The notes beneath the pieces are model-generated. The model searched no databases, was not told where the DNA came from, and saw only the letters and a list, made by a program, of their open reading frames with translations. The position numbers were made by a program, and so were the translations under genes. This document shows, in pieces, positions 18,226 to 34,874 of a DNA stretch of 40,159 nt; the first letter of the stretch is position 1; every line of letters starts with the position of its first letter. The DNA lies in the NCBI GenBank assembly GCA_015661185.1, contig JACVXU010000033.1, positions 1 to 40,159 of the forward strand, written 5' to 3'. The DNA comes from Bacteroidota bacterium (GTDB lineage: Bacteria > Bacteroidota > Ignavibacteria > UBA10030).

Positions 18226-18240
18226 AGTGTTTGTTTGGTA

Positions 18241-19080
18241 TCAGTCCTTGATTCGTAAAATCGTTTCTTCCAAGAGTGCAGTAAAGATCTCCTTCACACG
18301 ACCAGCTGCTACCGCAACCTCTTCATGTGATAACCGCCCCTCCGACAATCCAGCTGCCATGTTTGAGATGAGTGAGATTGCCCCTGTCCGCATACCGAGT
18401 TCTGTGGCAAGAATGACCTCCGGAACCGTCGACATCCCGACAGCGTCAGCACCCAGTCTGCGTAACATCTCAATCTCCGCTTTCGTTTCATATGACGGAC
18501 CCTTCAGCCAGCAGTACGTTCCACGACGGAGAGTGATCCCAAGAACTGCGGACGCATCTGTGATGTAACCAGAAATCTGTTTATCAAGATAGTGTGGGAC
18601 GCTTGCGTGGAAGAGAGTTGTGGTTGAGGAGTGATTTTCTTGATGAGGGTTCAAGAAAGACAGATCCATGAAATCCTCTATCAGCATCAGGTCTCCCTCG
18701 GAGAAAGCGGGGTTGATGCCTCCCGCAGCATTCGTTGCCAGAAGGAAACGAGCGCCAAGAGCTTTGGCCACAGAGATAGGAAAGGTCGTAGCCTTCAGAT
18801 CGTTGGTTTCGAAGAAATGAACGCGACCTTTGAATATCAGCAGAGGAAGGGATTCCTTGGTTCCAGTCTTCAGCTTTCCAAAAATCAGTTTGCCCTCGTG
18901 TCCGGCCACACTTGAAATGGGGTAGGAGGGGATGGAACTGGCGGTGATCTCAATCGGGTCAACAACGCGATCGGCGAAATCACCGAGTCCGGAACCGAGA
19001 ACGACAGCCACAGCGGGTCTTTGAGTGATACGCGAAGTTATGTGCGTTATCGCCTTTTCCAGCCTGGAATTATCTGTCAA
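18241..19080 (-). CDS. punA: Purine-nucleoside phosphorylase
   Basis: This enzyme cleaves inosine, guanosine and their deoxy forms with phosphate to give the base and (deoxy)ribose 1-phosphate. The trimeric PNP family motifs are present: VVLGSGLG, the GRVHFFE loop, ATNAAGGIN (phosphate/base region), GPSYETKAE and VGMSTVPEVILA. Length (279) fits the family. The first possible start after an in-frame stop is TTG 19080, with GAGGA immediately before it. The spacing is unusually short, so the exact start is uncertain. It lies 144 bases downstream of tdk, and that interval shows no gene or clear hairpin. With cdd and tdk it forms a nucleoside salvage group. Confidence 0.92.
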   Translation of the reverse strand: MTDNSRLEKAITHITSRITQRPAVAVVLGSGLGDFADRVVDPIEITASSIPSYPISSVAGHEGKLIFGKLKTGTKESLPLLIFKGRVHFFETNDLKATTFPISVAKALGARFLLATNAAGGINPAFSEGDLMLIEDFMDLSFLNPHQENHSSTTTLFHASVPHYLDKQISGYITDASAVLGITLRRGTYCWLKGPSYETKAEIEMLRRLGADAVGMSTVPEVILATELGMRTGAISLISNMAAGLSEGRLSHEEVAVAAGRVKEIFTALLEETILRIKD

Positions 19081-19224
19081 TCCTCATTTCCCTCTTGTTG
19101 GAGATTGTGATCTGCTAAATCGGGTCGCTCGCGACTTTCGAGGACTGCTCTGCGAAAGAACCACTTGCGTCCGCTGCTGGCGTTACAACGAATGGGCGGG
19201 GACTCCGGGGCAGGAAATGATCAA

Positions 19225-19800
19225 CTACTCCGAAGGAGGCTCAAAACAGTGCCGACAACGGGCTTCGTAGATGTCTTTCGCACCAACAACAACGCGATCG
19301 GCATGGTGCGTCTTGCGCTGTGTCCGATCTGCCGGATTTCCGCACACAACGCAGATGGCCAAAGTCTTTGTGATGTATTCAGCGACCGCCAAAAGTTGCG
19401 GCATCGGCTCAAAAGGTTTGCCTCTGTAATCCTGATCCAATCCCGCTACGATTACGCGCTTGCCCTTATTCGCGAGCAATTCACACACGTCTACGAGATT
19501 GGCTTTGAAGAACTGACCTTCATCGACACCAATAACCTGCGCATCCTTGCTGAGTTCGATGATTTCTGAAGCATCCTCTACCACCTGCGAGGTCAACGAC
19601 TGCTCGCTGTGTGATACGATATGTTGGGCGCTGTACCTGTTGTCAATCCGCGGTTTGAATATCGCCACCTTCTGCTTCGCTATTTCAGCCCTCCGTAGAC
19701 GTCGTATCAATTCTTCTGTCTTGCCGCTGAACATGCAGCCGCAAACGACTTCGATCCATCCCGTATTGCGCGGAACACTGTGGAGCTCTGACGTATCCAT
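19225..19800 (-). CDS. tdk: Thymidine kinase
   Basis: Tdk phosphorylates thymidine with ATP for dTMP salvage. The 191-residue type II thymidine kinase has the P-loop GCMFSGKT (21-28), the Walker B-like [10 protein letters not shown], the lasso/substrate region [13 protein letters not shown] and a zinc ribbon of four cysteines, CVVC and CRHC near the C-terminus. It starts three bases after the cdd stop. The cdd-tdk pairing makes sense, because deamination of deoxycytidine and phosphorylation of thymidine both feed pyrimidine deoxynucleotide salvage. Confidence 0.95.
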
Positions 19801-19803
19801 TCT

Positions 19804-20223
19804 CTACCTGCTTTTTTTCCTCGTTCGTTCGAGATTCTTCTGGCCAAACGCGTGCGGGAGAAGTTCTCGCATCTTGAGCACTTTGACCTTCCCTTTTCCG
19901 TTGACCATCAGAAAGTCAATATTGCCGGCGAGATCCATCAGTACCTGGCGGCAAGCGCCGCAAGGGGGAGTATATCCGGGATCGTCTGAGACCACCGCTA
20001 TCGCCTTGAAGTGATGGTCACCTTCCGATATCGCTTTGAAAATCGCGGTGCGTTCAGCACATATCGTCAACGCGTACGTGCTTATTTCCACGTTGCAGCC
20101 TTTGTAGATCTTGCCGTTCGATGCCAGCAACGCTGCACCCACCCGGAACCGGGAATAGGGTGCATACGCTCGCTTCTTTGCGGCCAAGGCATCCTTGACG
20201 AGCTTCTCGTATTCAGGTCGCAC
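19804..20223 (-). CDS. cdd: Cytidine deaminase
   Basis: Cdd deaminates cytidine and deoxycytidine to uridine forms. The zinc site is visible: CAE (55-57) in TICAERTA, with the proton-shuttle glutamate, and PCGAC (87-91). YAPYSRFRVGAALL and the N-E substrate motif in GCNVEIS are typical. I start the gene at GTG 20223, which gives 139 residues beginning MRPEYEKLVKDAL, as in homologues. The longer frame to ATG 20319 is unlikely: that ATG lies inside the -35 element of a good promoter (20291-20319), so the extra 32 residues would not be transcribed. GAGG lies about 12 bases upstream of the GTG. It is the first gene of the cdd-tdk-punA-bshC run. Confidence 0.92.
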   Translation of the reverse strand: MRPEYEKLVKDALAAKKRAYAPYSRFRVGAALLASNGKIYKGCNVEISTYALTICAERTAIFKAISEGDHHFKAIAVVSDDPGYTPPCGACRQVLMDLAGNIDFLMVNGKGKVKVLKMRELLPHAFGQKNLERTRKKSR

Positions 20224-20290
20224 TTCTGAATTTCGCCTCGTTGTTGCCGAATGTGAATCCTGGATTCTCCGACACTCAGAAAACCGTGAA

Positions 20291-20319
20291 AATATAGGCA
20301 AGATTGGACTGAAATGCAA
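20291..20319 (-). promoter_or_regulatory. Putative promoter of the cdd-tdk-punA-bshC run
   Basis: On the minus strand TTGCAT (20319-20314) is followed after 17 bp by TATATT (20296-20291), the same layout as the promoters of rimP, the PASTA gene and lrp-glnA. A start site near 20284 would leave a leader of about 60 bases before GTG 20223. A 14-bp inverted repeat TCCGGT-GG-ACCGGA (20328-20341) lies just upstream of the -35 and could bind a regulator. Confidence 0.6.
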
Positions 20320-20410
20320 TTGAGTCGTCCGGTGGACCGGAGAAGGTGGGGACCTCGGGATACGATGTTCTCAATCCGACTCCGTGACGATTACCAGTTG
20401 GAACGAATTG

Positions 20411-21109
20411 TCAGGCAGACGGGACTTGCCGCAGCTCGATGAGAGAGAGTGTTTCAAAGAAGAGTCTCTTCGTCTTGACGATCTGAAAAGTGAACTGGTT
20501 TTCCTCGAATGGCTGCAAGCACGCATAGATATCGATATCAGAGGTTAGCACAACAACAACCGACGCCCCGGGAAGAAGGAACTTGGGCAGATCCCTCGCC
20601 AATCTTACCATGAAACTGTTAGCATGACCACCTCTGAATGCCTTCTCTGCAATAGTCTTTGCTTCTCCGCCATAGAAAGGTGGATTGCTGAAAACAAAAT
20701 CAAAACCATGCACCGCCGGATCCAATCGATCCAAAACGTCACTTTCGAGAGCACAAATATTATCAGCGAGACCGTTTTGCCGGGCATTCACAGAAGTGGC
20801 CCTAATAGCAGCTGGATTGATGTCAATGCTTGTTACACTACCCCGAGCGCGCGCTGCAGCAAGAGAGAGAATGCCCGAGCCGCATCCAATGTCGAGAATT
20901 CGCTTCCCGCGGAGAGGCATCGTTTGAATGAACTCCGCGAAGAATTTACTCGTGAAATAGAATTTCGGGTGGAAGACGGTTGGAGGTACAACAATTGAAA
21001 ACCCGAGTAGATCAGTCGTGACAGTCCTTGACGTGGTCGGCTTCACCCATCCGTAATATGCGATGAGAAACAAAATACGTCGGATGGTTTTCATGATGCG
21101 GATGTGCAC
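20411..21109 (-). CDS. Class I SAM-dependent methyltransferase (N-methylase-like NPPFY motif)
   Basis: The protein has a Rossmann methyltransferase core with motif I RILDIGCGSGILSLA (about 70-84), the acidic end of strand 2 in SIDINPAAI, and motif IV SNPPFY (141-146). NPPY/F motifs occur in enzymes methylating exocyclic or amide nitrogens (HemK/PrmC, RsmC, MTS families), so an N-methyl target in RNA or protein is possible. An N-terminal hydrophobic segment (ILFLIAYYGWV) precedes the core. The substrate is not recognisable. The start may be ATG 21109 or ATG 21094. It follows the radical SAM gene 39 bases upstream and may end the cluster transcript; it could also be an unrelated housekeeping methylase. 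Confidence 0.75.
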   Translation of the reverse strand: MHIRIMKTIRRILFLIAYYGWVKPTTSRTVTTDLLGFSIVVPPTVFHPKFYFTSKFFAEFIQTMPLRGKRILDIGCGSGILSLAAARARGSVTSIDINPAAIRATSVNARQNGLADNICALESDVLDRLDPAVHGFDFVFSNPPFYGGEAKTIAEKAFRGGHANSFMVRLARDLPKFLLPGASVVVVLTSDIDIYACLQPFEENQFTFQIVKTKRLFFETLSLIELRQVPSA

Positions 21110-21148
21110 GACAATAAGGGATCTAACGAACTGATAATCGAAAACAGG

Positions 21149-22618
21149 TCAAAATCCTTCTATCTCAGGCTGTCGATATCTGAAAAGGCGTTGCATCACT
21201 GCGAGTTCGTACGGGGCTGTATAGATCTTCATCTTGTAGCGCCAGGACCCGAGCAAATGCAGGAGTTGTCGACGGAAACGCGTGAGCTTCAAATCGGAAT
21301 TCGTCGGGGAGTATGCATTTAATACCCGCTCGAAGTTTTTGATCAGCGCGATATTGTTCCGTTTGAGCCACGGTGTTACCGGATTTTTGCGCAAATCATG
21401 GAGCTGCCACTGTGGAAGGAGCCAATCGTCCAATTTCTCAGGGAATTGAAATCCCTGACTCTGTGAGGCGTGAAAAAGATCAGACTCCTGAAAATGCACA
21501 GGAGAGTAGGTATAAATGACGATCTCACTCTCAGGATTTATTTCTTTGATCTTTCGAATGTAATGAATATCCTGCTCAAGATCGTCTTGAACGGAGTTTG
21601 TAGGGTTGCCGAGAACGAAGGACAACTCCGGCACAATCTTGTAGAACTTCATTTTATCAACGAGCGCGAGCACAGTGTCGGGAGTTTGCGTTCCCCCTTT
21701 GTTCATCAGGTTCAGGACCTGTTGAGAACTTGATTCCGCGCCGAAGAAGATCATTTTGCATCCGGATCGCTGCAACATCTTCCAGGTGGCATCGTCATAC
21801 TGCAGCATCGTATCCGGGCGGGCTTCGCCCCACCAGCCAAAATCCTGCCCGACAATACGCTCTGCAAATTCAAATGTGCGCCGTTCCGACGTGAAGAAGT
21901 TGTTGTCGTGAAATTCAACTGCGTTGACGTTGAAGTTCTTTTTGAACCAGACCAGGTCATTCGCAATTCGTTCAGGCGCCAAGCCAATCCACCGCGCCTT
22001 GTAGACCGCAGCCACAGCACAAAATCCGCAGAGGAACGGGCAGCCTACACTTGAGTGGTAGTTGACAGTCCGAGTTCCGAGATATGTTTTCCCGATGTAA
22101 GGAGTGATATTCAGCTTTGAATAGGGAAGGGGAGGCAGATCGTTGGGATCGATGAGTTCTTGTTTCTGATTGTGCTGAATGGACCCGGCCTTGTACGACA
22201 ATCCTCGAATAAGGCTGAGGTCGCCACCGATCTCCAGAGAGTCAATCAAACTTCGAAAAGATAAGTTACCCTGATCACGGATGACAAAATCGACATAGGG
22301 AGCTCTCAAGACCACATTCGTATGTAAGGTCGGGAAATAGCCTCCCCAGATTATTTTGACAGAAGGGAAACGCTCCCGGATCATCCTGGAGAGGAGAATC
22401 GACTGGTGCAGTTGAGGGCCAGGCATGACAGTAAAACCCACGTATCGTATCGATCGCTCAACGATGAGCTTCGTCAAAGTGGTGGCGATATCCCTATCAA
22501 TGTTCCCGTCAAGAATATCATAGGAGTATCGTCCCTCCAATGAAGCTCCAATGGAAAGGAGAGAAAGCGGGATTCTATATCGCCAGTTCGTCGCGTGCGG
22601 ATTTACGAGAGCAATCAT
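21149..22618 (-). CDS. B12-binding-domain radical SAM protein
   Basis: The 489-residue protein has an N-terminal cobalamin-binding-type Rossmann domain (about 1-140; LVNPHATNWRYRIPLSLLSI, then KIIWGGYFPTLHT). A radical SAM domain follows with the cluster cysteines C193, C197 and C200 in CPFLCGFC. The segment FFGAESSSQQVLNLMNKGG and the B12-radical SAM layout resemble BchE/HpnP/HpnR-like enzymes, which carry out methylations, cyclisations and other radical reactions on unactivated carbons. The C-terminal 120 residues are helical and not assigned. The start lies four bases after the GT87 gene, so translation is coupled. The reaction is not predictable. It is more distant from the two other radical SAM proteins in this cluster than they are from each other. 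Confidence 0.85.
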   Translation of the reverse strand: MIALVNPHATNWRYRIPLSLLSIGASLEGRYSYDILDGNIDRDIATTLTKLIVERSIRYVGFTVMPGPQLHQSILLSRMIRERFPSVKIIWGGYFPTLHTNVVLRAPYVDFVIRDQGNLSFRSLIDSLEIGGDLSLIRGLSYKAGSIQHNQKQELIDPNDLPPLPYSKLNITPYIGKTYLGTRTVNYHSSVGCPFLCGFCAVAAVYKARWIGLAPERIANDLVWFKKNFNVNAVEFHDNNFFTSERRTFEFAERIVGQDFGWWGEARPDTMLQYDDATWKMLQRSGCKMIFFGAESSSQQVLNLMNKGGTQTPDTVLALVDKMKFYKIVPELSFVLGNPTNSVQDDLEQDIHYIRKIKEINPESEIVIYTYSPVHFQESDLFHASQSQGFQFPEKLDDWLLPQWQLHDLRKNPVTPWLKRNNIALIKNFERVLNAYSPTNSDLKLTRFRRQLLHLLGSWRYKMKIYTAPYELAVMQRLFRYRQPEIEGF

Positions 22619-22622
22619 TTGA

Positions 22623-23861
22623 TCATGACGAAATAGGATGAGGATTTTTGTGCCAGCCGTCTGACTTGACCAGGCCGGTGATCGTCAGGAAGAGACCCAG
22701 GAGCAGGTAAAGCCGGGGATATGCAAGAAGTTTCCAGGCACGTTCCAGGCTCAACGCCTCCAGAGCGCCTGCTGGTACTCCCCCGAGCCCACAAAAGCAG
22801 ATTAGGACAAGAGCCAATGGAACAAACTGTCTGGACTCGAGCAGGATAGAACTCAATATGGCAACTGGAATCGTGAGCACCAGGAAATGATACGTTGCTG
22901 TCGCAGGAGCTACGAGCAACGCAAAGGAGAAGAGGATTCCGACAAAGAACGAAAAGTGCGCTCCCTGCTTGAATCCGATTCGAGCGGCACGGAGCAGAAC
23001 CAATGTCAGGCCGGTGATGACCAACCCCCTGGCATAAGAAAATCCAGCGGACCAATCGACAAACGGATGCGGGTTAAGGGGATAGTCTTTGACAAAAAGG
23101 GACCTCAATAGGCTGTTCCAGGATTGATACGTGGCAGAAAAAGGATTCACCATCTGGCCATCAAGATGTTCGACCAAGACTACACGGAGAAATGAACTAT
23201 GCAGGGCAGGTCCCAAGGTCAGCACACTGACACCGAGCACAACAAGAACTGCGAGTGCAGTACTCGCTGCGGCGATCCAACGCTTTTCAAACAGGAAGAA
23301 GACAACCAAAGCCAGGGGGAAATACTTGATCGGAATGAATAGTCCGGCCAGTATGCCACTCAGCACATCTTTCTTTTGTGTGTAGAACCGAATGCTGAAA
23401 GCGAGACAGAGTGTCAAGAGAAGATAGGATTGGCCGAGATAGAAATTGTTGATGAGTGCGAAGCCTGAACCAAGCAGAACCAGGAAGGAATGGGAATAGT
23501 CAAGCTTGCTGAGCCTGGAAAGCACCGATACCAGGGCGGCCAGGATGCCCAGATTAATCACGGTCCAGAGTGTCTTGGCTGTTCGCATGTCAAAGAATGC
23601 CAGCGGCACCATCAGAAGTGCGGTGGGAGGAGGAAAGGGCTGGAAGATTCCTCCTTCAGGGCCTCCCAACATTCTTGCTCGTTGGCTGAACCATTGGGAG
23701 TCATAGAGCCTTTCAACGTTTCGGCTCTCGTGGACCAGCACATACGAACTTGTATAGTAGTTCGAAAAATCTGTCCCGATCGTAGTAAACGCCGGTATGA
23801 TTCCTTTCACGAGGAGCAGAATGGTGAGTGCCACCATGAGAAACACTCTCGCAGCTTTCAT
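22623..23861 (-). CDS. GT87-type integral membrane glycosyltransferase (DUF2029)
   Basis: The 412-residue protein is very hydrophobic, with about nine or ten transmembrane segments, starting with one at residues 6-25. The DUF2029/GT87 hallmarks are present: an acidic residue after the first helix in GTDFSNYYTSS, FPPPTALLMVPLAFF, GQSYLLLTL and IPIKYFPLAL. Characterised GT87 members (mycobacterial PimE and relatives) are GT-C transferases using polyprenyl-phosphate sugars on the outer face of the inner membrane. Donor and acceptor here are unknown. The start overlaps the GT9 stop by four bases, and the next gene begins four bases downstream, so it is embedded in the operon. Confidence 0.82.
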   Translation of the reverse strand: MKAARVFLMVALTILLLVKGIIPAFTTIGTDFSNYYTSSYVLVHESRNVERLYDSQWFSQRARMLGGPEGGIFQPFPPPTALLMVPLAFFDMRTAKTLWTVINLGILAALVSVLSRLSKLDYSHSFLVLLGSGFALINNFYLGQSYLLLTLCLAFSIRFYTQKKDVLSGILAGLFIPIKYFPLALVVFFLFEKRWIAAASTALAVLVVLGVSVLTLGPALHSSFLRVVLVEHLDGQMVNPFSATYQSWNSLLRSLFVKDYPLNPHPFVDWSAGFSYARGLVITGLTLVLLRAARIGFKQGAHFSFFVGILFSFALLVAPATATYHFLVLTIPVAILSSILLESRQFVPLALVLICFCGLGGVPAGALEALSLERAWKLLAYPRLYLLLGLFLTITGLVKSDGWHKNPHPISS

Positions 23862-25045
23862 GAAGCCGCCTCCATCAACGTTTCGTTCGAAACGTCCTCC
23901 CTCAAGAGAACGCGGGCTGCATCGACGACTTGTTCAACCGAGATGTCTCTCATACATTTTGCATTGATCGGGCACCGGAACACTTTTGCATTGTACACGT
24001 TCAGACACGGGCTGCAGGGGAGGGATGCAAAAAGATTGATGGACTTGTTGCCGAGAGGGCCGTAGAATTCAGGAGACTCGGGACCAAACAGCGCGACAGT
24101 CGACAACCCGACCGCAGCCGCAATGTGCATCGGTCCGCTGTCATTTGTTATCAGGAGCCTGGCTCGGGAGAAGAGAGCCATGAGTTCCTTAAGAGTCAAT
24201 TGTCCGGCGAGGTTCACAATGCGGGTCGATCTGAACATCATCTTTTCGACAACGCCCTCGACGTAGGCCCTTTCCTCAACTGAGCCAATGAGGCAGAAAA
24301 GGGCATCTGGATTGTCCAGCTGAAGTATGTCGATTGTGCGTGCAAAGCAGTCGCCACTCCAGCGCCGGTCAAGTGAAGTCTCACCAGCATTTGCATCAAC
24401 GCAGATAATCTCTTCATGCGGAGAAGCTGCAGGCAATCCGGGAAGAGTACCACTCGCGGCTTCATTGATGCGAATGCGGGGGAGCACAAGATCCGAGCCA
24501 TCGATCCCAAGTGGAGCTACTGTGCGCAGGAATGTTTTTGACACATGGCGATCGTTCTTGAGAGAGATCGAATCTGTCAGGTTCCATGATCGCCAGCGCG
24601 TCGGAAGAGCAAAGCCAATGTGCTTTCCTGGTCGGGCAATTGCCCCCAAGAATGTAGAGAACTTCGAGAAAAACTCGAGATCGAGGACGACATCGATCTT
24701 GGTCGTAACCAGCCGGCTCACGATGACGACGAACGATTTAAGAAAAGAGCGGGGCGTCCGTGCGTCGATGAGCCATCGCTCATCGATCATGGGTATCTCT
24801 TCGACAAGCTCAGAATTTGACGAAAACGTGAGAAAGGTGACTCTTGCCTCTGGAAACTGTATCCGCAATAGTCGAAGCGCAGGAGTGGCCAGCAGGATGC
24901 TCCCAAGTCCGAAGAACTTAATGACCAGAATCGATTCGACAGTCTCCCCAGCCCTCCGCTTGAACATCATTCTGACAAGTCCGGAGATCCAACAGAGCGG
25001 GAGGCCGAGAAATCGGTCAATGTGACGCATAGATGAGATCCTCAT
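23858..25045 (-). CDS. Glycosyltransferase family 9 (heptosyltransferase-like)
   Basis: The 395-residue protein has the GT-B fold of family 9. An N-terminal half begins with ILVIKFFGLGSILLATPALRLL, equivalent to the GD(A)xLxTP motif of heptosyltransferases. A C-terminal half contains LITNDSGPMHIAAAVGLSTVALFGP, the classic GT9 donor-binding segment (read here in two parts around residues 300-325). A cysteine-rich loop, SLPCSPCLNVYNAKVFRCP, with further cysteine after it, is found in many GT9 proteins. Family members add heptose or other sugars to lipopolysaccharide core or similar glycans at the cytoplasmic face. The start overlaps the methyltransferase stop by four bases. Acceptor and donor are unknown. 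Confidence 0.87.
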   Translation of the reverse strand: MRISSMRHIDRFLGLPLCWISGLVRMMFKRRAGETVESILVIKFFGLGSILLATPALRLLRIQFPEARVTFLTFSSNSELVEEIPMIDERWLIDARTPRSFLKSFVVIVSRLVTTKIDVVLDLEFFSKFSTFLGAIARPGKHIGFALPTRWRSWNLTDSISLKNDRHVSKTFLRTVAPLGIDGSDLVLPRIRINEAASGTLPGLPAASPHEEIICVDANAGETSLDRRWSGDCFARTIDILQLDNPDALFCLIGSVEERAYVEGVVEKMMFRSTRIVNLAGQLTLKELMALFSRARLLITNDSGPMHIAAAVGLSTVALFGPESPEFYGPLGNKSINLFASLPCSPCLNVYNAKVFRCPINAKCMRDISVEQVVDAARVLLREDVSNETLMEAAS

Positions 25046-25851
25046 CGCAGCCTCTTTCGGAGGACCATCACATTATGATCACCGATGGATCGGAGAACAG
25101 GGAGACGGCAAAGCAGGTCATCGATAGCCTCTAGTCCAGCTGTGAGTGCTGGGAAGCGCTTTGCAGCCTTCCAGGCATGAGGTGGAGGGCTGAACACGTT
25201 TAGGCCAAATGTCTCTATGACCTCAAATCCGGCTGAGAACGCCCGAGCCACCTGCCCGGGAGAGTAGTAGTAGACTGTGAAGCTGATGCCATTCAGTTGA
25301 GTTACCGTTCCGGCTCGATTCAGCCTACGGAGCGCCTTTTTGAAATCTCTCCTAATCGCGAAAGAGAAGGTCTCCCACAAGGAGAATGACGGCATCACGA
25401 CTGCGATGAAGTACCCGCCTGGCTTGAGCCGGTCTGCAACTTGTTTCCCCACCTCTGTGAGGTCCCGCGTGCAATTCAGCCCGCCGAAGTTTGAGAGGAC
25501 CAGATCAAATTCATTCGCTGCGATATGATCGAGGTTCTCATAGGATGCTACAAGGAACTGAGCATTTGGGAGCCCTTGAGATTTCCGGTTGGCTTCTGCT
25601 ATCATTCGAGACGAAAGATCAACCGCAACAATTGAAAAACCTTTTTCCGCAAGATGGATCCCGTCTGTCCCGGTCCCGCAATTGATATCCAAAATCTTTG
25701 CCGGAGGACGCACCCAGAAATCAATCGTTGAATAGATTTTTTGGCGAAGTCTCTCGCTAATTGCATTGTGCCCGAACAATGCGTCATATTGCCCGGCAAG
25801 GGAATCGAATGCTGATGCAACTTCGGGATGATCGTGTGCCAGTTGCGCCAT
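25042..25851 (-). CDS. Class I SAM-dependent methyltransferase
   Basis: The 269-residue protein is a small-molecule-type methyltransferase. It has motif I AKILDINCGTGTDGIHLA (about 51-68), motif II VAVDLSSRMI, motif IV FDLVLSNFGGLNC and motif VI LKPGGYFIAV. The unusual N in DINCGTG replaces the more common V/L/I-G pair. The start is taken as ATG 25851, four bases after the stop of the upstream radical SAM gene; the longer frame would run back into that gene. The region after the core (PGQVARAFSAGFEVIETFG) resembles ubiquinone/menaquinone- or sugar-methyltransferase tails. The target is unknown but probably shared with the surrounding glycosyltransferase and radical SAM genes. Confidence 0.83.
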   Translation of the reverse strand: MAQLAHDHPEVASAFDSLAGQYDALFGHNAISERLRQKIYSTIDFWVRPPAKILDINCGTGTDGIHLAEKGFSIVAVDLSSRMIAEANRKSQGLPNAQFLVASYENLDHIAANEFDLVLSNFGGLNCTRDLTEVGKQVADRLKPGGYFIAVVMPSFSLWETFSFAIRRDFKKALRRLNRAGTVTQLNGISFTVYYYSPGQVARAFSAGFEVIETFGLNVFSPPPHAWKAAKRFPALTAGLEAIDDLLCRLPVLRSIGDHNVMVLRKRLR

Positions 25852-25855
25852 GGTT

Positions 25856-27247
25856 TCAACTCTTCGAAAACTTCGTCGACAGCATACCGAGATGAGCAAC
25901 TTTTGCTTTCGTAAAAGCTGATACCCTGTCCAGCATCCGGCCATGCTTGCTGCTTGTCAACGAGTGGAAAAGGACTTCATTCGTCAATCTTCGCTGAGCA
26001 AACCAGTAAAAGAGGTCAGAATGTCTTCCTCGAATCCGCACATCTCTCTCAGTTCGTTCTTCCCAGGGCTTATTTGCCTCTACGAGTCCTTCGTTTTCGG
26101 TGTGATACGCCGTTCCTTTGATCGGATAGGCAACCGTGGTAAGAAATGTGTTGGCCTGCGTCAGTTTCAGATGGTCGATCGTTGCGTCGATGTCCTCGAT
26201 CGTTTCTCCTTCATATCCAAGCATCACGAAGAGGCCGGCTTCTATCCCATGACGCTGGGCACGTCGGGTGGCTTCTCGGATCTCGGCGACAGTGACTCCG
26301 CGAGACATCGCGTCAAGTACGCGTTGTGAACCGCTCTCGGAGCCAAACCAGATGCGAAAGCAACCCAGGTTCGCCATCACATCCATGACCTGCTCATTCA
26401 GGCGATCAGCCCGCGAAATGCACTCGAATGGTATATGCAAATTGCGCCGTTTCATCTCGGCCGCGTACTCGTGCAGCCATTTGTGGTTGATCGTGAAGAC
26501 ATCATCGGCAATCCACAGCATGTCGGGTTTGTAGCGGCTTACAACAAGCTCGATTTCATTCACCACGTTCTCGGGGCTTCGCCGCCGGTGAGAGAAGCCG
26601 TAGACTCCGTGGCTGCACCATTTACATGTGTAGGGACATCCGCGTGCCGTGATCAACGAAAGCGATCCTCGTCCGTGATGTGCGCGCCATGTCGACACAT
26701 AGCGATCAATGTCGATTGCCTCCCGATCAGGAAACGGAAGCGTATCGAGGTCCTGGACCAATGATCGCGGGGGAGTGCGTATGATAGTACCTGATTCGTC
26801 TCTGAAAGCAATCCCGTGAACATCGTGGAGTCGATGGACACCAGCCCTCACAATACTGTGCATGACAGATTCAGTTGTGATCTCTCCCTCGCCATTGATG
26901 ATCACATCAGCACCTGAGTCAATGAACTCTTTGGCGTAGGAAGATGGCTCCGGGCCACCAAGCAGGACTGTTGACCCGATGGATTTGCACAGTCTGATCA
27001 TCGCCAAAACGTTCAGCTTCGTCATCAGATTGCAGTAGATCCCGACGATCGAAGGGCGGTGTTCCCGGAGATAATCTGTGAAATCTTCCATGCGGCGAAA
27101 CGTCGAGTCGAACACGGTGACGTTCACCTCTTTGGACTTCAAGTATGCTGACAGATACAGGATCCCCAATGGCGGATATGGCTTCATCACGCGTTTCTCG
27201 TGTTCATCCTTCGCGAGGAAGTAACCATGGGTCAGAAGCAATTCCAT
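25856..27247 (-). CDS. B12-binding-domain radical SAM protein (paralogue of its upstream neighbour)
   Basis: The 463-residue protein has a cobalamin-binding-type domain (about 1-140; MKPYPPLGILYLSAYLKS, VLLGGPEPSSYAKEF, VIINGEGE) and a radical SAM domain with C204, C208 and C211 in RGCPYTCKWC. RSPENVVNEIE, WIADDVFTIN and FGSESGSQRVLDAMSRG follow the usual pattern of BchE/HpnR-like enzymes. It is clearly related to the gene directly upstream, with aligned blocks across both domains, so the pair probably arose by tandem duplication. Its ATG overlaps the upstream stop by one base (TGATG), a sign of translational coupling. The reaction is unknown. The all-intact domain set suggests it is functional. 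Confidence 0.87.
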   Translation of the reverse strand: MELLLTHGYFLAKDEHEKRVMKPYPPLGILYLSAYLKSKEVNVTVFDSTFRRMEDFTDYLREHRPSIVGIYCNLMTKLNVLAMIRLCKSIGSTVLLGGPEPSSYAKEFIDSGADVIINGEGEITTESVMHSIVRAGVHRLHDVHGIAFRDESGTIIRTPPRSLVQDLDTLPFPDREAIDIDRYVSTWRAHHGRGSLSLITARGCPYTCKWCSHGVYGFSHRRRSPENVVNEIELVVSRYKPDMLWIADDVFTINHKWLHEYAAEMKRRNLHIPFECISRADRLNEQVMDVMANLGCFRIWFGSESGSQRVLDAMSRGVTVAEIREATRRAQRHGIEAGLFVMLGYEGETIEDIDATIDHLKLTQANTFLTTVAYPIKGTAYHTENEGLVEANKPWEERTERDVRIRGRHSDLFYWFAQRRLTNEVLFHSLTSSKHGRMLDRVSAFTKAKVAHLGMLSTKFSKS

Positions 27248-28536
27248 CAGCGTGTGCTCGAGTCTTTCTTCTCTTGATGTTCCTGCGATGCGAGGGCATT
27301 GAGCCTGGAGTGAATGCTGGGTGCCGTAAGCATGTGAAATGCGGATTTCGCCAGCCGTTCGAGATCGGCTTTGCCCAATGACCGCGGCCTGGCAAGCGCT
27401 TTTCTCAGGATGTTGCTCGCCTCCCAGATCCTGAACTTTTTGTGCGTGAATCTGTGAAGCAAGCGATAGAATTCTGGAGTGTAGGTTCCCCGAAACATCA
27501 GTGCGAGGTCGCCGCTGTCGATCCAGTTCTGCTTCTGTTCCAGCTCCGCCTTCACTGTCTCAAAAAGCTTTGTGCCGGGGAGTGGGTAGGAAACTGAAAT
27601 TCCAATTTCATCAGGCATACACTCCCGCACCATTCGGAGCGTTCGCTCGATGTCATCGCGGGTTTCGCCGGGATAGCCGTACTGCAGGAAAAACCCGACC
27701 CGAATGTTGTTCTGGTGAAGGCGGGAGGTGGCCTCATAGATTTGTTCCACCGTTGTTCCCTTCTCCATTGCGTCCAAGACCTTTTGCGAACCGGATTCGG
27801 CTCCAATCCAAACTGTTTGGCATCCTGCATTCCTGAGGTGGCGGATGTTGTCTTCCTTCAGGAGGAGGTCTGCCCTTGAAAGACACTTGAACGGAATCGC
27901 TGCATTTCGGGCATTGACGAGCTCATCGAAACGGCTGATCCAGCCCGGTTTCAGCCCAAAGATATCGTCAGTAAACCACACATAATCTGGATTCGCTGTT
28001 TCCCTCAGAACCAGCATTTCTTCCACCACATTCTCAGGGCTTCGGCTGTGATAAACCTGTCCATAGATCGGTTTTGCACACCAATTGCAGTGGAAAGGGC
28101 AACCCCGTGTCGTCACCATATTGAGTGAGAAGTACCCATGCCTTTGCTTCCAGGCCTCCCGGTATCGTTCGAATTCCACAAGGTCCCACGCCGGAAAGGG
28201 GAGGAGGTCCAGGTTTTCTAAAATCTTGCGCGGGGCTGTCCGGACGACCTCGTTGCCCTTCATGAACGCAAGACCGTGGATTAATTCGACGGGAGAACCT
28301 GAATTTCGCAGAAGGTTCTCCATCAATTGCCGTAGCGTTTCCTCGGCTTCTCCGCAGATCACATAATCGGCTCCGTGGAGAAAGTACTTTTCGACGTGAT
28401 CGGATGAGTCAGAACTGAATATGACGACCTTGCACCCCCGCAACTTCGCGATTTTCGTCATCGCAAACGCCGCCTCTCGCATTCGCGTCAGACACATTTT
28501 TGTAAGGTAGTTAAACTGATCGTCATAGATGACCAC
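27247..28536 (-). CDS. Radical SAM protein, main part of a gene interrupted by an in-frame stop
   Basis: This uninterrupted part (429 codons from GTG 28536) holds the second half of a B12-binding domain (KVVIFSSDSSDHV, YVICGEAEETLRQL) and a complete radical SAM domain. The cluster cysteines are C146, C150 and C153 in RGCPFHCNWC, followed by RSPENVVEEM, WFTDDIFGL and WIGAESGSQKVLDAMEKG. The first part of the same gene continues upstream in the same frame (28579-28743) and is separated from it only by TAA 28579-28581. GTG 28536 is therefore probably not a natural start. Restoring the stop would give about 499 residues, similar to the downstream paralogue plus a tail. Either the gene is a recent pseudogene, or the base is an error, or the stop is read through. 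Confidence 0.8.
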   Translation of the reverse strand: MVIYDDQFNYLTKMCLTRMREAAFAMTKIAKLRGCKVVIFSSDSSDHVEKYFLHGADYVICGEAEETLRQLMENLLRNSGSPVELIHGLAFMKGNEVVRTAPRKILENLDLLPFPAWDLVEFERYREAWKQRHGYFSLNMVTTRGCPFHCNWCAKPIYGQVYHSRSPENVVEEMLVLRETANPDYVWFTDDIFGLKPGWISRFDELVNARNAAIPFKCLSRADLLLKEDNIRHLRNAGCQTVWIGAESGSQKVLDAMEKGTTVEQIYEATSRLHQNNIRVGFFLQYGYPGETRDDIERTLRMVRECMPDEIGISVSYPLPGTKLFETVKAELEQKQNWIDSGDLALMFRGTYTPEFYRLLHRFTHKKFRIWEASNILRKALARPRSLGKADLERLAKSAFHMLTAPSIHSRLNALASQEHQEKKDSSTR

Positions 28537-28578
28537 AACCTCCGGATGATGATGGGCGAGCGCCTCCGCAATGTCGTC

Positions 28579-28743
28579 TTAATGATGAGAAAGCATAACG
28601 TCATGCAACGCTACCGAGAACCCGGAGCTTCGAAGGTAACTCGCTGCGTAGAGCGTCCCCAGCGGAGGATACGGCATCATCGCCCGAAGTTCTTTCGGGT
28701 CAAAATGCAGGAAGTATGAATGCGTTAGAAGGATCTGTGCCAT
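28579..28743 (-). pseudogene. N-terminal fragment of the interrupted radical SAM gene
   Basis: Fifty-four codons from ATG 28743 encode the start of a B12-binding domain: ILLTHSYFLHFDPKEL, then MMPYPPLGTLYAASYLRS. This aligns directly with MELLLTHGYF and MKPYPPLGILYLSAYLKS of the paralogue at 25856-27247. The frame ends at TAA 28579-28581 and continues without shift as DDIAEALAHHHPEVVVIYDD into the main part. A single-base change of the TAA codon would restore one gene of about 499 codons. ATG 28743 is preferred over the TTG at 28767, which overlaps the upstream gene, because it matches the paralogue's start. Confidence 0.8.
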
Positions 28744-28763
28744 GACTCGTTCTGAATTCGCTC

Positions 28764-29726
28764 TCAATTGCGTTGTTCGAAGCCCAAGATACTATAGTGC
28801 CGGAGCCTGTATGCATACTGCGCGAGCACCTTCTGTTGAAAATCCTCACCGTACGCGGTCGAGATACAGGAGTCACAACGAAACTTGTGATTCCGCTCTT
28901 CTTCGCTCAGGTGAGCGTAGCGCCGCTGCCACACCTGCCTCCAACGACCGAGAAGCCATGAGTCCAGTTCGTCTCCGGCGATTTCCGGCAGGAATGATTC
29001 GACGACTCGTTGAACAATGCTTCTCGAGTCCTCTTCCTCGACACAGCCGGTTGATCCCATGTCCCAATGAGGGAAGAATTCTCTGATCCACTGATTTGCT
29101 CTGATGTACTCCATATACAGTGGATGATTGTAAAGAGGTTTGAGCGTCGCGATTTCGGTCGCCGAGTAGATATTTCTCAACTCAACCGTCAGGCGATCCT
29201 CAGTGATGAAATGGTTCAGGCAAAAGTACTTCTTACTGTTGAAGAGAAAGACTTTCTTAAAGAGGATCAGCAAAGACCTGCAAATCCATAGTCTGCGTTT
29301 TTCGGTGACAATCACAAAATCGATATCGCTGTTCTTGCTGGCGACGCCTTTTGAGAGTTCGCCTGAAAGCATCACAGCGCGCACGAAGGGGAACATGCGT
29401 ATGAAGCGTGCCACTGCCATCGCAGTCTTAGTCCTCCGTCTGGCCAGTCGCTCCTTCTTCAGCCGTGTCTCAACGCACGATTCGGTCGCGGAATGAAGGA
29501 AATAGTGCCCTTTCCTCGATTTTACTATCCGTTGAAGGGAGTTCGATTCCAGCACTCTCCGAAGTTCTTCAAGCGTGATCACAGTGCAAGGAAAGAATGA
29601 AAATATCTCTGCGGCTGTCAGGGGATGATCAAAGATGTTGAAATAGAGGAGCACTCTGAGAATGCTCTGCTCATGAGGCGACAATCCGGGGACGGATTGA
29701 GGTGCATGGACAATCGGTGCGTTCAT
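28764..29726 (-). CDS. Nucleotidyltransferase-fold protein with N-terminal helical/winged-helix region
   Basis: The 320-residue protein carries the polymerase-beta/MNT-type nucleotidyltransferase signature, SGELSKGVASKNSDIDFVIV (residues 121-140), with the two metal-binding aspartates D134 and D136. The 80 residues before it (SILRVLLYFNIFDHPLTAAE) look like a winged-helix segment. The C-terminal half contains no motif I recognise, but has a Cys pair in RCDSCIS. Relatives annotated only as nucleotidyltransferase-domain proteins are often found in sugar or lipid gene clusters. The substrate is unknown. It is the first gene of the minus-strand cluster and ends 20 bases before the radical SAM ATG at 28743. 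It could be a toxin-antitoxin MNT-like protein, but no HEPN partner is nearby. Confidence 0.72.
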   Translation of the reverse strand: MNAPIVHAPQSVPGLSPHEQSILRVLLYFNIFDHPLTAAEIFSFFPCTVITLEELRRVLESNSLQRIVKSRKGHYFLHSATESCVETRLKKERLARRRTKTAMAVARFIRMFPFVRAVMLSGELSKGVASKNSDIDFVIVTEKRRLWICRSLLILFKKVFLFNSKKYFCLNHFITEDRLTVELRNIYSATEIATLKPLYNHPLYMEYIRANQWIREFFPHWDMGSTGCVEEEDSRSIVQRVVESFLPEIAGDELDSWLLGRWRQVWQRRYAHLSEEERNHKFRCDSCISTAYGEDFQQKVLAQYAYRLRHYSILGFEQRN

Positions 29727-30016
29727 TACGTCGTGCTCCGCGGGAGTAGAATCGACTCTTGCTTATGATGAAAAGCGTGTTTCACCAAAAAGCAAATTCA
29801 TATGTCGAATCAAGGATCAAAAAAGGGAGACATCGTCTGATCTTGTCAGCTTTTCGAGCAACGTCGCCGGAGGAATTGAACTCGAGATAAGTGACTTGCA
29901 ATCCTGATGCCAGGAGAGTGTTGCGACGGATCTACGTTTCAGCCCAATTTCCTTGACATCTGAATCTAGGAAGCGGCTGGAAGTGTGGAAAAAACACAAC
30001 ATGCGTACATGATTGT

Positions 30017-30032
30017 GAGGAATAAATTCCTC
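30017..30032. promoter_or_regulatory. 16-bp palindrome, possible operator
   Basis: GAGGAAT-AA-ATTCCTC is a perfect inverted repeat with seven-base arms. It lies 31 bp upstream of the -35 of the PASTA gene promoter and between two divergent units, a typical place for a regulator site. The binding protein is unknown. Confidence 0.35.
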
Positions 30033-30063
30033 GCGATTGAAGGTCAGGCCCCGATCGCTGATG

Positions 30064-30092
30064 TTGTAACTCTGACGAAGTTTGGCTATATT
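30064..30092 (+). promoter_or_regulatory. Putative promoter of the PASTA-rpe-nagA unit
   Basis: TTGTAA (30064-30069) and TATATT (30087-30092) are separated by 17 bp, and TATTTTTG at 30089-30096 also fits the FCB-type TAnnTTTG. A start site near 30100 would leave a leader of about eight bases before ATG 30108. This rules out the longer frame beginning at 29985. Confidence 0.5.
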
Positions 30093-30107
30093 TTTGAAGT
30101 TATTCGA

Positions 30108-30434
30108 ATGACATCATGGAAGAACATACGGCTTAAGGACCTTCGAACACCCGCAATCATACTCGGGGTATTCCTGGTTCTCTTGTACATCTTTAACAAC
30201 ATCGTGATGCCTCGGTACGTTCAGCAGGGAAAGACCACGACGGTGCCGAATGTGGTTGGAAAGGCGCTCGATGAAGCTGTCACGATGCTTGCCGAGGCAG
30301 GCCTGCCGGGAAAAAAAGCTGACGTTCGCAACGACAAGCAATACCCCGAGGGAACAGTCGTTGTTCAGAATCCGCCGGCTGGTGCCGAAGTCAAGTTTGG
30401 ACGCGGAGTGTATCTGACCGTCAGTGGCGCGTGA
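30108..30434 (+). CDS. PASTA-domain membrane protein, N-terminal part (gene broken)
   Basis: From ATG 30108 this fragment encodes a short cytoplasmic segment, one transmembrane helix (AIILGVFLVLLYIFNNIVM, about residues 17-35) and a first complete PASTA domain, from TVPNVVGKALDEAVTML to YLTVSG. PASTA domains bind muropeptides or act as structural spacers at the cell surface, here in the periplasm. The frame ends at TGA 30432-30434 shortly after the first domain. The second and third PASTA domains continue in the next frame from about 30427, with about 15 residues of the expected second-domain start missing. It therefore looks like a three-PASTA protein split by a small deletion with frameshift. 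Confidence 0.75.
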   Translation: MTSWKNIRLKDLRTPAIILGVFLVLLYIFNNIVMPRYVQQGKTTTVPNVVGKALDEAVTMLAEAGLPGKKADVRNDKQYPEGTVVVQNPPAGAEVKFGRGVYLTVSGA

Positions 30435-30831
30435 TGCAACGTTCGCCTTGGAACGGTTTGCTCTTGTGATGGGTTCGGCGACATATCAGGTCTCTGAAGA
30501 GTATCCGCAAGGCACAATTATCGATCAGGATACACCCGAGAATTCGAAGGTTCCGAGCGGAATGGTCATCAATGTCACCGTCAGCCAGGGGAAGAGCGCG
30601 GATCAGGTGCCTGTTCCTGATGTAACCAAGAAAACGTTCTCTGAGGCTGAGCGCGTTCTGATTCAAGCAGGTTTTCGCGTTGGCAACATCACGTATCAGG
30701 TCAATGCAGATCTCTTGCCCAACACCGTCCTCGAGCAATCCCCCAAAGCCGGACAGTCGATCCCTGCCGGACAAGCCATCGACCTCGTCGTTGCGCAAAA
30801 GGGAGAGAAGCCAAACGATCTTCAGAACTAG
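30424..30831 (+). CDS. PASTA-domain protein, C-terminal part (gene broken)
   Basis: This frame (GTG 30424, 135 codons) holds the rest of a second PASTA domain (RDATFALERFALVMGSATY to INVTVSQG) and a full third domain (VPVPDVTKKTFSEAERVLI to IDLVVAQKG), and ends just before rpe. It has no membrane anchor or signal of its own, and its GTG overlaps the upstream fragment, so independent translation is doubtful. The second domain lacks its usual opening (VPxLxG). This places the lesion at about 30424-30430. The placement directly upstream of rpe is what one expects of the intact gene in related bacteria (recollection, not verified here). Confidence 0.7.
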   Translation: MARDATFALERFALVMGSATYQVSEEYPQGTIIDQDTPENSKVPSGMVINVTVSQGKSADQVPVPDVTKKTFSEAERVLIQAGFRVGNITYQVNADLLPNTVLEQSPKAGQSIPAGQAIDLVVAQKGEKPNDLQN

Positions 30832-30840
30832 TCCGGACCT

Positions 30841-31512
30841 ATGATCTACATCGCCCCTTCAGTTCTCGCCGCCGATTTTTCCCATCTCGCAGATCAGCTA
30901 GCACAAGCCGAAGCCGGCGGAGCCGATTGGATACACCTCGACGTAATGGACGGGCAGTTCGTTCCAAACATCACCATTGGTCCTTTTATCATTAACGCAG
31001 TTCGTCAATCGACGAAGCTCCCCCTGGACACTCATTTAATGATCGTGAACCCCGATAAGCACCTCGAAACGTTTCGCGGTGCTGGGGCGGATTATATCAC
31101 AGTTCATCAGGAAGCGTGCACGCATCTGCATCGGACCATCACGCAGATCAAACATCTCGGCGCAAAGGCTGGTGTGTCAATCAATCCAGCGACGCCATGT
31201 TCGACTTTAAAGGAGATCATCTCGGAGGTTGATCTCATCCTCATCATGTCCGTCAATCCTGGATTCGGCGGGCAAACGTTTATCGAAGGGACACTGCGGA
31301 AACTCCGTGAGGCGAAGTCAATGATCGAAGAGTCCGGCCGTGATATCAGGCTTGAGGTCGATGGAGGCATTGACATGGTCACAGGACCACGAGTGGTTCG
31401 GGCGGGGGCCGATGTACTTGTGGCTGGTACCTCAATCTTTAGAAAACCTGACATCAAGAAAGCAGTCGCGGAGCTGCGATCAATCATTGAATCAGGAGCA
31501 ATGAAGAAGTAA
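30841..31512 (+). CDS. rpe: Ribulose-phosphate 3-epimerase
   Basis: Rpe interconverts ribulose 5-phosphate and xylulose 5-phosphate in the pentose phosphate pathway. The 223-residue TIM barrel has SVLAADFSHLADQL, the metal/active-site segment HLDVMDGQFVPNITIGP, LDTHLMI, SVNPGFGGQTF and LEVDGGI, with both catalytic aspartates (in DVMDG and VDGGI). It begins nine bases after the PASTA frame and ends five bases before nagA, so the three probably share a transcript. Confidence 0.95.
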   Translation: MIYIAPSVLAADFSHLADQLAQAEAGGADWIHLDVMDGQFVPNITIGPFIINAVRQSTKLPLDTHLMIVNPDKHLETFRGAGADYITVHQEACTHLHRTITQIKHLGAKAGVSINPATPCSTLKEIISEVDLILIMSVNPGFGGQTFIEGTLRKLREAKSMIEESGRDIRLEVDGGIDMVTGPRVVRAGADVLVAGTSIFRKPDIKKAVAELRSIIESGAMKK

Positions 31513-31517
31513 CGCGC

Positions 31518-32690
31518 ATGACCTTTGCCATTCGAAATGTCGATATCGTAACGCCCTTCCGTATTATTCCAAAAGGATCGATTCTCGTTGAAGGGAAGAA
31601 GATCGCCGCTATAGGAAAAACCTCGGAGGTCGCGATTCCTTTGGGAACAAAGACTTTTGATCTCGACGGGATGGTGCTTACTCCTGGCTACATCGATCTC
31701 CTTGTCCACGGAGGCGGCGGCTTCGGATTCGCTGATATGAGCATAGAGGCCGTTGAACACATCTCCCAGCACTTCTTTCAGCACGGCACGACAGGGCTCC
31801 TTGCATCACTCTACAGCAAGCCCGAAAAAGATATGCTGGCCGACGTAACGAGAATTGCCGAATTCTGCAGCGCTTCGAAGAACTCGAATGTCTGGGGCAT
31901 GCACTTAGAAGGCCCATTCATCAACAAGAAATGGCACGGTGCGATGTTGGTCGACTACCTCTGGCAGCCAAGTGTCGAGGGATGGAAAAAGCTTCACGCA
32001 GCGGGCAATGGATATATTCGCCTTATGACGCTCGCTCCCGAGCTTCCGGGAATGGAGGACGTGATGCGGGCGGCTGCCAAGAATGGCGTGGTTTTGTCGA
32101 TCGGACATTCCGCTGCAACCTTTGAAGAGGTCCTCGTTGCGATCGATAACGGAGCGGCCCATATCACACATATGTTCAATGCGATGACTCCATTCCATCA
32201 TCGCCAGCCGAGCGTCACAGTGGCAGCACTGCTTCAGAATGAGCTCAAGGTGGAGTTGATCGCTGATGGGTTTCACGTTCATCCCGCCGTGATGAAGCTG
32301 ATCTACAATATCAAGGGAGATGGGGGAATCGTCCTGATAACCGATGCAATCCGAGCCAGCGGGATGCCGGATGGTGAATATGCATTTATGGACCAGAAAA
32401 TCATTGTCAGGCAGAAAAAAGCCTACCTGGAGAATGGAACCCTGGCGGGAAGCACCTTGACGATGGAACAGGCAGTGAAAAATATGGTTGAGCTCGTTGG
32501 AGTGCCCCTGACCGATGCGGTTCGAATGGCTTCACTCAACGGCGCCAAGGTCCTTGGTCTCGAGCACAAGAAGGGTATCCTCGCCGTCGGCAAAGATGCA
32601 GACCTCGTCGTACTGAACAAGGACTTCGACGTCCAAATGACCATCTACGAAGGAACCATCAAGCACAACGCCCTCACGGCTGCCTCCTGA
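31518..32690 (+). CDS. nagA: N-acetylglucosamine-6-phosphate deacetylase
   Basis: NagA removes the acetyl group from GlcNAc-6-phosphate in amino-sugar catabolism and wall recycling. This amidohydrolase has GYIDLLVHGGGG, the metal-binding glutamate in HLEGPFI, IGHSAA and THMFNAMTPFHHRQP with the metal histidines, IADGFHVHP, and the catalytic aspartate in LITDAI. Length (390) is normal. One position is odd. In E. coli the glutamate of HLEGP is followed 12 residues later by substrate-binding His143; here the same spacing gives Met (WHGAM). The substrate preference may therefore differ. No nagB is nearby. A terminator follows the stop by about 30 bases. Confidence 0.9.
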   Translation: MTFAIRNVDIVTPFRIIPKGSILVEGKKIAAIGKTSEVAIPLGTKTFDLDGMVLTPGYIDLLVHGGGGFGFADMSIEAVEHISQHFFQHGTTGLLASLYSKPEKDMLADVTRIAEFCSASKNSNVWGMHLEGPFINKKWHGAMLVDYLWQPSVEGWKKLHAAGNGYIRLMTLAPELPGMEDVMRAAAKNGVVLSIGHSAATFEEVLVAIDNGAAHITHMFNAMTPFHHRQPSVTVAALLQNELKVELIADGFHVHPAVMKLIYNIKGDGGIVLITDAIRASGMPDGEYAFMDQKIIVRQKKAYLENGTLAGSTLTMEQAVKNMVELVGVPLTDAVRMASLNGAKVLGLEHKKGILAVGKDADLVVLNKDFDVQMTIYEGTIKHNALTAAS

Positions 32691-34793: not shown

Positions 34794-34825
34794 TCTTTTA
34801 TTCTGCATCGTTGCGTAGAATACAT

Positions 34826-34858: not shown

Positions 34859-34874
34859 GCTTCTGCCGGCTTCC

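Follow-up and report, generated by a model that had tools for sequence, protein, structure and literature searches.

A facultative gene unit of radical SAM enzymes and glycosyltransferases, probably for a modified envelope glycan or glycolipid, in a Bacteroidota bacterium of the Ignavibacteria

A gene unit carried or missing as a whole

The window (the whole stretch of 40,159 nucleotides analysed here) carries on its minus strand eight neighbouring genes that form a real unit, present or absent as a whole in relatives (Table 1). We interpret this run (20411-29726), with a probability of roughly 0.6, as a facultative cassette whose genes make a modified glycan or glycolipid of the cell envelope. 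The gene order, re-read from the coordinates, is NTase, rS1, rS2, MT1, GT9, GT87, rS3 and MT2, and adjacent genes overlap by 1-4 bp or are separated by 4-39 bp, as described in the first-pass annotation. NTase and rS1 either overlap by 4 bp or lie 20 bp apart, according to which start codon is used. The ORF of MT1 was listed from 25944; the start at 25851 lies 4 bp past the rS2 stop. Pfam returns the families originally assigned (radical SAM for the three radical SAM proteins, GT87, GT9 and methyltransferases). All eight genes were located, although one feature had been overlooked: rS1 is split by an in-frame TAA.

Table 1. Features of the gene run and its flanks (window coordinates)
Feature	Position	Strand	Remarks
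NTase, winged-helix (wHTH) and MNT/ANT-like nucleotidyltransferase	28764..29726	-	First gene of the unit; motif LSGELSKGVASKNSDIDFVIV
rS1, B12-binding-type radical SAM protein	27247..28767	-	Start TTG 28767 or ATG 28743; interrupted by TAA
In-frame TAA within rS1	28579..28581	-	Lacking in the other aligned homologues
rS2, B12-binding radical SAM protein	25856..27247	-	Paralogue of rS1; optional member
MT1, class I SAM methyltransferase	25042..25851	-	Core member
GT9, heptosyltransferase-like glycosyltransferase	23858..25045	-	PF01075, 89.3 bits (cut-off 22)
GT87, polytopic glycosyltransferase of the polyprenyl-phosphate-sugar type	22623..23861	-	PF09594, 91.7 bits (cut-off 25)
rS3, B12-binding radical SAM protein	21149..22618	-	Often paired with MT2
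MT2, class I SAM methyltransferase	20411..21109	-	Last gene of the unit
Interval absent from same-genus genome G002	20324..30063		385 bp in that genome; extent of the cassette
Right flank, outside the unit	16570..20319	-	CDA 19804-20319, TK 19225-19800, PNP 18241-19080, BshC 16570-18225
Left flank, outside the unit	29985..31512	+	PASTA gene (frameshifted here), ribulose-phosphate 3-epimerase

That the genes constitute one unit is supported by more than their spacing: their order is conserved across genera, the empty sites are clean and the genes co-occur genome-wide. Seven cassette-free relatives, two of them from the same genus, have an empty site in which the PASTA gene adjoins CDA-TK-PNP-BshC and 9.7 kb are missing. 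In the alignment with G002, window position 20323 corresponds to L158:10895 and position 30064 to L158:11280. Because the empty sites of cassette-free relatives are clean, the unit can be equated with the reported run, whose extent coincides with that of the natural presence/absence unit. CDA, TK, PNP and BshC were considered as possible members and ruled out; they are backbone genes and are retained where the cassette is absent. A scan of the run for promoters and terminators gave matches no commoner than in shuffled sequence, a result that does not address internal promoters.

A constant core with exchangeable partners

NTase, rS1 and MT1 form the constant core of the unit, while rS2, rS3 and MT2 are optional, recurring members. 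rS1 is the most conserved gene of the unit and is found across several phyla, with closed Bacteroidota genomes such as G091, G286 and G340 among the hits. Every genome that carries rS1 also carries the NTase, both among 296 genomes of the phylum (24/24, p about 1.6e-31) and among 61 relatives (28/28, p about 2.6e-14). The NTase lies immediately upstream of rS1 in 25/26, 56/71 and 11/15 loci, with a median overlap of 4 bp; the two genes are usually adjacent, with this 4-base overlap, in Ignavibacteriota/Bacteroidota, Chloroflexota, Acidobacteriota and KSB1. MT1 lies downstream at a distance of up to 4 kb in 17/20, 40/57 and 11/14 loci. The glycosyltransferases vary from locus to locus (GT9/GT87, GT4 or GT2, elsewhere together with Wzx/Wzy). 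Conserved synteny of eight families in the same order had been proposed as a check on the unit. The full order does recur in one relative outside the window (L044/L067), but as a general expectation it is too strict: what is conserved is NTase-rS1-MT1, accompanied by rS2, rS3 and MT2 as optional members and by exchangeable glycosyltransferases. The divergence of the core tracks that of the backbone RPE (r = 0.64-0.73), and a search of a plasmid collection with rS1 gave no match at E <= 1e-30.

The interrupted rS1 gene

The TAA separates the start of the B12 domain of rS1 (ORF 28579-28767) from the remainder of the frame. Aligned homologues elsewhere have a sense codon at this site, mostly Glu. 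Two nearby genes of the contig carry lesions as well (the PASTA gene is frameshifted and an enoyl-CoA hydratase shows a frame change) and the stop may therefore be a consensus or assembly error. It could also be taken, together with these two lesions and the repeated clean absence of the cassette among relatives, as a sign that rS1 is a pseudogene in a decaying or artefactual cluster heading for loss. This we find very improbable. The remaining seven reading frames are uninterrupted, and dN/dS values are low (0.13-0.19 in five genes and 0.39 in MT1, indicating purifying selection), including in both halves of rS1. Consensus errors in a metagenome assembly of 445 contigs would explain the three lesions equally well and, in any case, decay would bear on this genome and not on the function of the unit.

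The radical SAM proteins

PF04055 scores over its cut-off in rS1, rS2 and rS3, and the B12-binding family PF02310 does so in rS2 and rS3. The CxxxCxxC motif already noticed in the first reading is present in all three proteins; in rS1 its three cysteines are invariant in 18 homologues. The B12 domain of rS1 has a signature of its own, YDDxFNYLxKMC, which is largely invariant. In structural comparison, the model of an intact rS1 homologue aligns with cobalamin enzymes from its first residue on and with B12/radical SAM enzymes along its full length (Z 19-24). The combination in rS1 of an N-terminal B12-type Rossmann domain, a radical SAM barrel and CxxxCxxC, as in class B-like cobalamin-dependent radical SAM enzymes, occurs in BchE, HpnJ, OxsB, TsrM, MgmA, CysS and TokK and in the related AprD4. 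AprD4 is a relative of the cobalamin radical SAM enzymes that is not known to use cobalamin and, since it is among the best matches, the fold of rS1 alone is no proof of B12 use. The genome has one match to PF01497, the family of BtuF-like binding proteins, which is too broad to indicate B12 uptake.

In contrast to the known cobalamin-dependent enzymes, the radical SAM proteins of the window fall below every curated cut-off. For the NCBIfam equivalogs of BchE, HpnJ, HpnR and the ladderane radical SAM proteins, the best score, that of rS2 with the BchE model, is 142 bits, where the cut-off is 481. As the three proteins resemble several families of differing function without reaching the cut-off of any, each may catalyse either a methylation or a rearrangement.

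The distant scores of rS1-rS3 with HpnJ, HpnR, BchE and ladderane models, and the use of lipid-linked donors by the GT87 family, would also suit a cluster in which the radical SAM proteins alter a membrane lipid or polyprenol (by hopanoid-, ladderane- or tetraether-like chemistry) and the glycosyltransferases make the head group. We regard this as quite unlikely: every match is far under the equivalog cut-offs and the unit includes no fatty-acid or isoprenoid genes. The hopanoid option raised in the first-pass annotation is unlikely in this lineage and was dropped. The genome itself has no match to squalene-hopene cyclase, and none of 61 genomes (this one and 60 relatives) exceeds the family cut-off, which is a weak negative by itself because the control genomes also fell below it.

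Glycosyltransferases and envelope context

The GT9 protein shares its domain with the lipopolysaccharide heptosyltransferases (TIGR02201, TIGR02195) but does not reach the NCBIfam equivalog cut-off for RfaC/F/Q, scoring 119.5 bits against 170.2 for TIGR02201, the heptosyltransferase III model. The genome encodes an ADP-heptose kinase (HldE domain). GT87 has at least 8 hydrophobic segments, 8 of them strong.

Glycosyltransferases are enriched in the run of rS1: they make up 72/286 non-core genes within it and 65/1011 outside it, an odds ratio of 4.9 in a test that counts related loci as independent. They are present in 12/26, 25/80 and 6/15 runs, so that some NTase-rS1-MT1 loci have no recognised glycosyltransferase; contig ends and diverged glycosyltransferases may explain part of these. 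Neighbours at other loci include Wzy_C, a Wzx-like flippase, GT2, GT4, SPASM radical SAM proteins, an arylsulfotransferase and ABC transporters. Wzx-like and Wzy-like genes each occur within the rS1 run at 11/80 loci; Wzy_C and Wzx-like genes adjoin the core in Chloroflexota, and Wzy_C does so in one Bacteroidota locus. The glycosyltransferase enrichment and the Wzx/Wzy-type genes in Chloroflexota lend contextual support to the original suggestion of a modified glycolipid or envelope glycan, short of demonstrating it.

Wzx/Wzy polysaccharide and LPS/LOS loci likewise combine a constant set of genes with exchangeable glycosyltransferases and vary by presence or absence at a fixed chromosomal site. 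In contrast to these, the unit in the window has no recognised flippase, polymerase or initiating sugar-phosphate transferase, and we found no described locus of either type defined by a core of nucleotidyltransferase, B12-type radical SAM protein and methyltransferase. A literature search of open-licence papers returned no described cluster or named pathway of such make-up, which is weak evidence of absence.

The nucleotidyltransferase

The NTase has the motif LSGELSKGVASKNSDIDFVIV; across 24 homologues, the DxD catalytic acids D134 and D136 are invariant and E176 is nearly so. The Pfam score (19.3 bits) is under the 21-bit cut-off, and a profile of the NTase run against the sequences of solved structures gave no match up to E = 1. 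The structural model shows the MNT/ANT nucleotidyltransferase fold and matches MntA and ANT structures. The NTase has this fold and the two catalytic aspartates in common with the MNT antitoxins and aminoglycoside nucleotidyltransferases (MntA, AadA, ANT(4') and HalB). It differs from them in its extra N-terminal winged-helix domain, in its tie to a radical SAM gene and in having no HEPN partner gene: Pfam scans of the run show none beside it, and at nearly every locus rS1 is the gene next to it. The first motif is often G-E, whereas the classical MNT/ANT form is G-S.

This likeness to ANT/AadA enzymes and MNT antitoxins, and AprD4 with paromamine as the solved structure of highest Z for the rS1 model (24.3), could suggest a small-molecule natural product, such as an aminoglycoside- or nucleoside-like pseudo-oligosaccharide. 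In such a cluster rS1 would be an AprD4-like sugar deoxygenase, the methyltransferases and glycosyltransferases of the unit would perform tailoring and the NTase would be a self-resistance ANT. However, AprD4, OxsB, TsrM and MgmA differ by no more than about 2 Z units for the rS1 model, Foldseek ranks MgmA first, and ANTs do not have the winged-helix domain of the NTase. The unit also has no scaffold gene (cyclitol synthase, NRPS/PKS or sugar aminotransferase), GT87 is a membrane enzyme and the Chloroflexota loci lie in a Wzy/Wzx context. A natural product of this kind is unlikely.

Proposed function

For the envelope glycan or glycolipid that we favour, we infer the product class, the order of steps, the types of reaction and the role of the NTase. 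The glycosyltransferases would build a short glycan linked to a lipid carrier: GT9 would act on the cytoplasmic side with a nucleotide-activated sugar such as ADP-heptose, and GT87 in the membrane with a sugar from a polyprenyl-phosphate donor. Next, the radical SAM enzymes, B12-dependent and up to three in number, would alter the glycan or its carrier at unreactive carbons, either by C-methylation or by rearrangement or deoxygenation (as in OxsB or AprD4), and the two ordinary methyltransferases could modify heteroatoms of the glycan or carrier. The NTase might attach a nucleotide to an intermediate or to a protein partner, or serve as a regulator linked to its winged-helix domain. The core NTase-rS1-MT1 would supply a common element and the exchangeable glycosyltransferases the strain-specific sugars.

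More tentatively, NTase-rS1-MT1 may be an unrecognised biosynthetic core shared across phyla (Bacteroidota/Ignavibacteriota, Chloroflexota, Acidobacteriota and KSB1); its product would be a sugar or lipid-carrier element, modified by radical chemistry, of a type so far undescribed for bacterial envelopes. The core would connect to differing glycosylation machineries in both LPS-bearing and non-LPS lineages, with the nucleotidyltransferase as obligatory partner of the B12-type radical enzyme. Why a winged-helix nucleotidyltransferase is so strictly paired with a single B12-type radical SAM enzyme is a specific puzzle for enzymology, and one that can be tested. Natural empty sites already delimit the unit, and sister genomes with and without the genes offer a direct comparison of envelope chemistry. 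If the proposal is true, B12-radical-SAM chemistry belongs to envelope glycans in large groups that are for the most part uncultured.

Gene content and boundaries of the cassette

The eight minus-strand genes of the first-pass annotation are present as it described them, with Pfam domains that agree, except that rS1 is interrupted in the window by an in-frame TAA (28579-28581), which that annotation missed.

Genes of the cassette and their positions in the window
Gene	Position	Strand
NTase	28764-29726	minus
rS1	27247-28743/28767	minus
rS2	25856-27247	minus
MT1	25042-25851	minus
GT9	23858-25045	minus
GT87	22623-23861	minus
rS3	21149-22618	minus
MT2	20411-21109	minus

The cassette is a real unit, as first proposed, because relatives have empty sites, NTase and rS1 co-occur and gene order is conserved. 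In seven cassette-free relatives, including two of the window's own genus (G002 and G004), the PASTA-RPE side abuts CDA-TK-PNP-BshC; the G002 counterpart of window interval 20324-30063 is 385 bp. The boundaries are therefore those of the reported run, which rules out the downstream nucleoside-salvage genes (CDA-TK-PNP) as members. The amidohydrolase gene (31518-32690) that separates RPE from the glutamine synthetase gene in the window is absent from this position in G002 (L158) and some other relatives.

NTase and rS1 were each searched independently. Every rS1 carrier also has NTase, both among 61 relatives (28/28; Fisher p ~2.6e-14) and among 296 genomes of the phylum (24/24; p ~1.6e-31), with genomes treated as independent of phylogeny. 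The four NTase-only genomes of the phylum set gave the weakest or fragmentary matches. NTase lies immediately upstream of rS1 (median overlap 4 bp) in 25/26 relatives, 56/71 public-genome loci and 11/15 wider-phylum loci, and MT1 at most 4 kb downstream of rS1 in 17/20, 40/57 and 11/14, respectively; some contigs are common to the first two sets. The expectation of eight families in conserved order holds in part: the full order recurs in one relative (L044/L067), but the constant core is NTase-rS1-MT1 and the rest varies, with rS2, rS3 and MT2 as recurring members.

Distribution and history

A single scan of genome contigs with an rS1-alignment profile found 417 relatives, the best 80 of which belong to Ignavibacteriota, Bacteroidota, Balneolota, Chloroflexota (Anaerolineae, Ardenticatenia), Thermomicrobiota, Acidobacteriota and KSB1. 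In the tree of these 80, Chloroflexota, Acidobacteriota, KSB1 and Thermomicrobiota form one clade (SH-aLRT 100) separate from the Bacteroidota/Ignavibacteriota lineages, with phylum labels still partly mixed.

The cassette is more likely to be ancient and repeatedly lost than recently transferred, since carriers of at least two families share one chromosomal site, core divergence tracks that of the backbone gene RPE (Mantel r 0.64 and 0.73; 0/2000 permutations as high) and content is variable. In relative G006, GT2 genes and an LPG_synthase_TM protein occupy this site in place of the cassette (L165, 3033-9520); envelope genes may therefore have a hotspot here.

Interruption of rS1

The TAA is the sole break between the first 62 codons (ORF 28579-28767) and ORF 27247-28536, which share a frame. 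Among the aligned homologues it is unique to the window genome; all others have a sense codon, mostly glutamate. dN/dS is low on either side (0.12-0.14) and over whole genes (0.13-0.19 for NTase, rS1, rS2, GT9 and GT87; 0.39 for MT1), which is compatible both with a recent lesion and with consensus errors in the source metagenome assembly (445 contigs). The adjoining PASTA gene (29985-30831) has a frameshift near 30429 and is a single ORF (257-284 aa) in relatives; the enoyl-CoA hydratase (34815-35703) has its N-terminus in a different frame (change near 34921) compared with relatives' intact copies (L043).

Predicted functions

NTase falls below the Pfam cut-off (19.3 versus 21 bits). Its AlphaFold model (mean pLDDT 87.9) starts with a winged-helix domain (wHTH matches reach Z 9.9), continues with a nucleotidyltransferase of the MNT/ANT type and ends in a helical C-terminal region; ANT(4'') matches with Z 8.7 across 112 residues, and the top Foldseek match is MntA with AMP-PNP (E 0.008). 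It is probably catalytic, because D134 and D136 do not vary among 24 homologues and E176 hardly does. Second, stand-alone copies without rS1 (L053, 2408-3364; L034, 1907-2968) lie close to a histidine kinase-like gene and an NtrC-like response regulator.

The predicted architecture of rS1-rS3 is like that of cobalamin-dependent radical SAM enzymes. An rS1 model from an intact homologue (pLDDT 81) matches AprD4, OxsB, TsrM, MgmA, CysS and TokK over its full length (Z 19-24), while every match of the three proteins to NCBIfam BchE, HpnJ, ApyD, PhpK and ladderane models is far under cut-off. Known relatives mostly methylate inert carbons; BchE, OxsB, HpnJ, PbsB and the proposed ladderane enzyme instead perform ring closure or rearrangement (PMC13142503). 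A secreted aminoglycoside-like product is worth keeping in mind, given the AprD4 and ANT folds among the structural matches, but the cassette has no scaffold gene and its context is membrane or polymer assembly. The hopanoid role first considered is unlikely, since squalene-hopene cyclase is under cut-off in all 61 genomes, as it is in control genomes.

Glycosyltransferases depend on lineage: the window has GT9/GT87 and other family members GT4/GT2, whereas Chloroflexota loci combine GT2 with Wzy_C and a Wzx-like flippase and Bacteroidota loci have GT4/Wzy_C. Their homologues make up 25% of non-core genes inside the rS1 run versus 6.4% outside (odds ratio 4.9). Such variation and enrichment typify loci for surface glycans or glycolipids. 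The modified glycolipid or envelope glycan suggested by the first-pass annotation is thus the probable product class, with the enrichment and the Wzy_C/Wzx-like context in its favour. The window genome and almost all relatives encode ADP-heptose kinase, whether they carry the cassette or not; a heptose donor is thus available, yet this does not discriminate. Accessory genes at rS1 loci include SPASM radical SAM proteins, an arylsulfotransferase and ABC transporters. A PNP/MTAN-superfamily phosphorylase in the run at 8/80 loci (for example, L137, 13545-14348, and similar Chloroflexota loci) plausibly removes 5'-deoxyadenosine or SAH from the radical enzymes.

The cassette is assigned to no named pathway and, in line with the first-pass annotation, no named cluster of this make-up was found in the open-licence literature. 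We file it as an envelope-glycan or glycolipid locus of known type with an undescribed NTase and B12-type radical SAM core, in which the radical SAM enzymes would most likely alter a sugar or the lipid carrier, by methylation or by rearrangement, while a lipid-linked glycan is assembled, and MT1 and MT2 would add heteroatom methyl groups.
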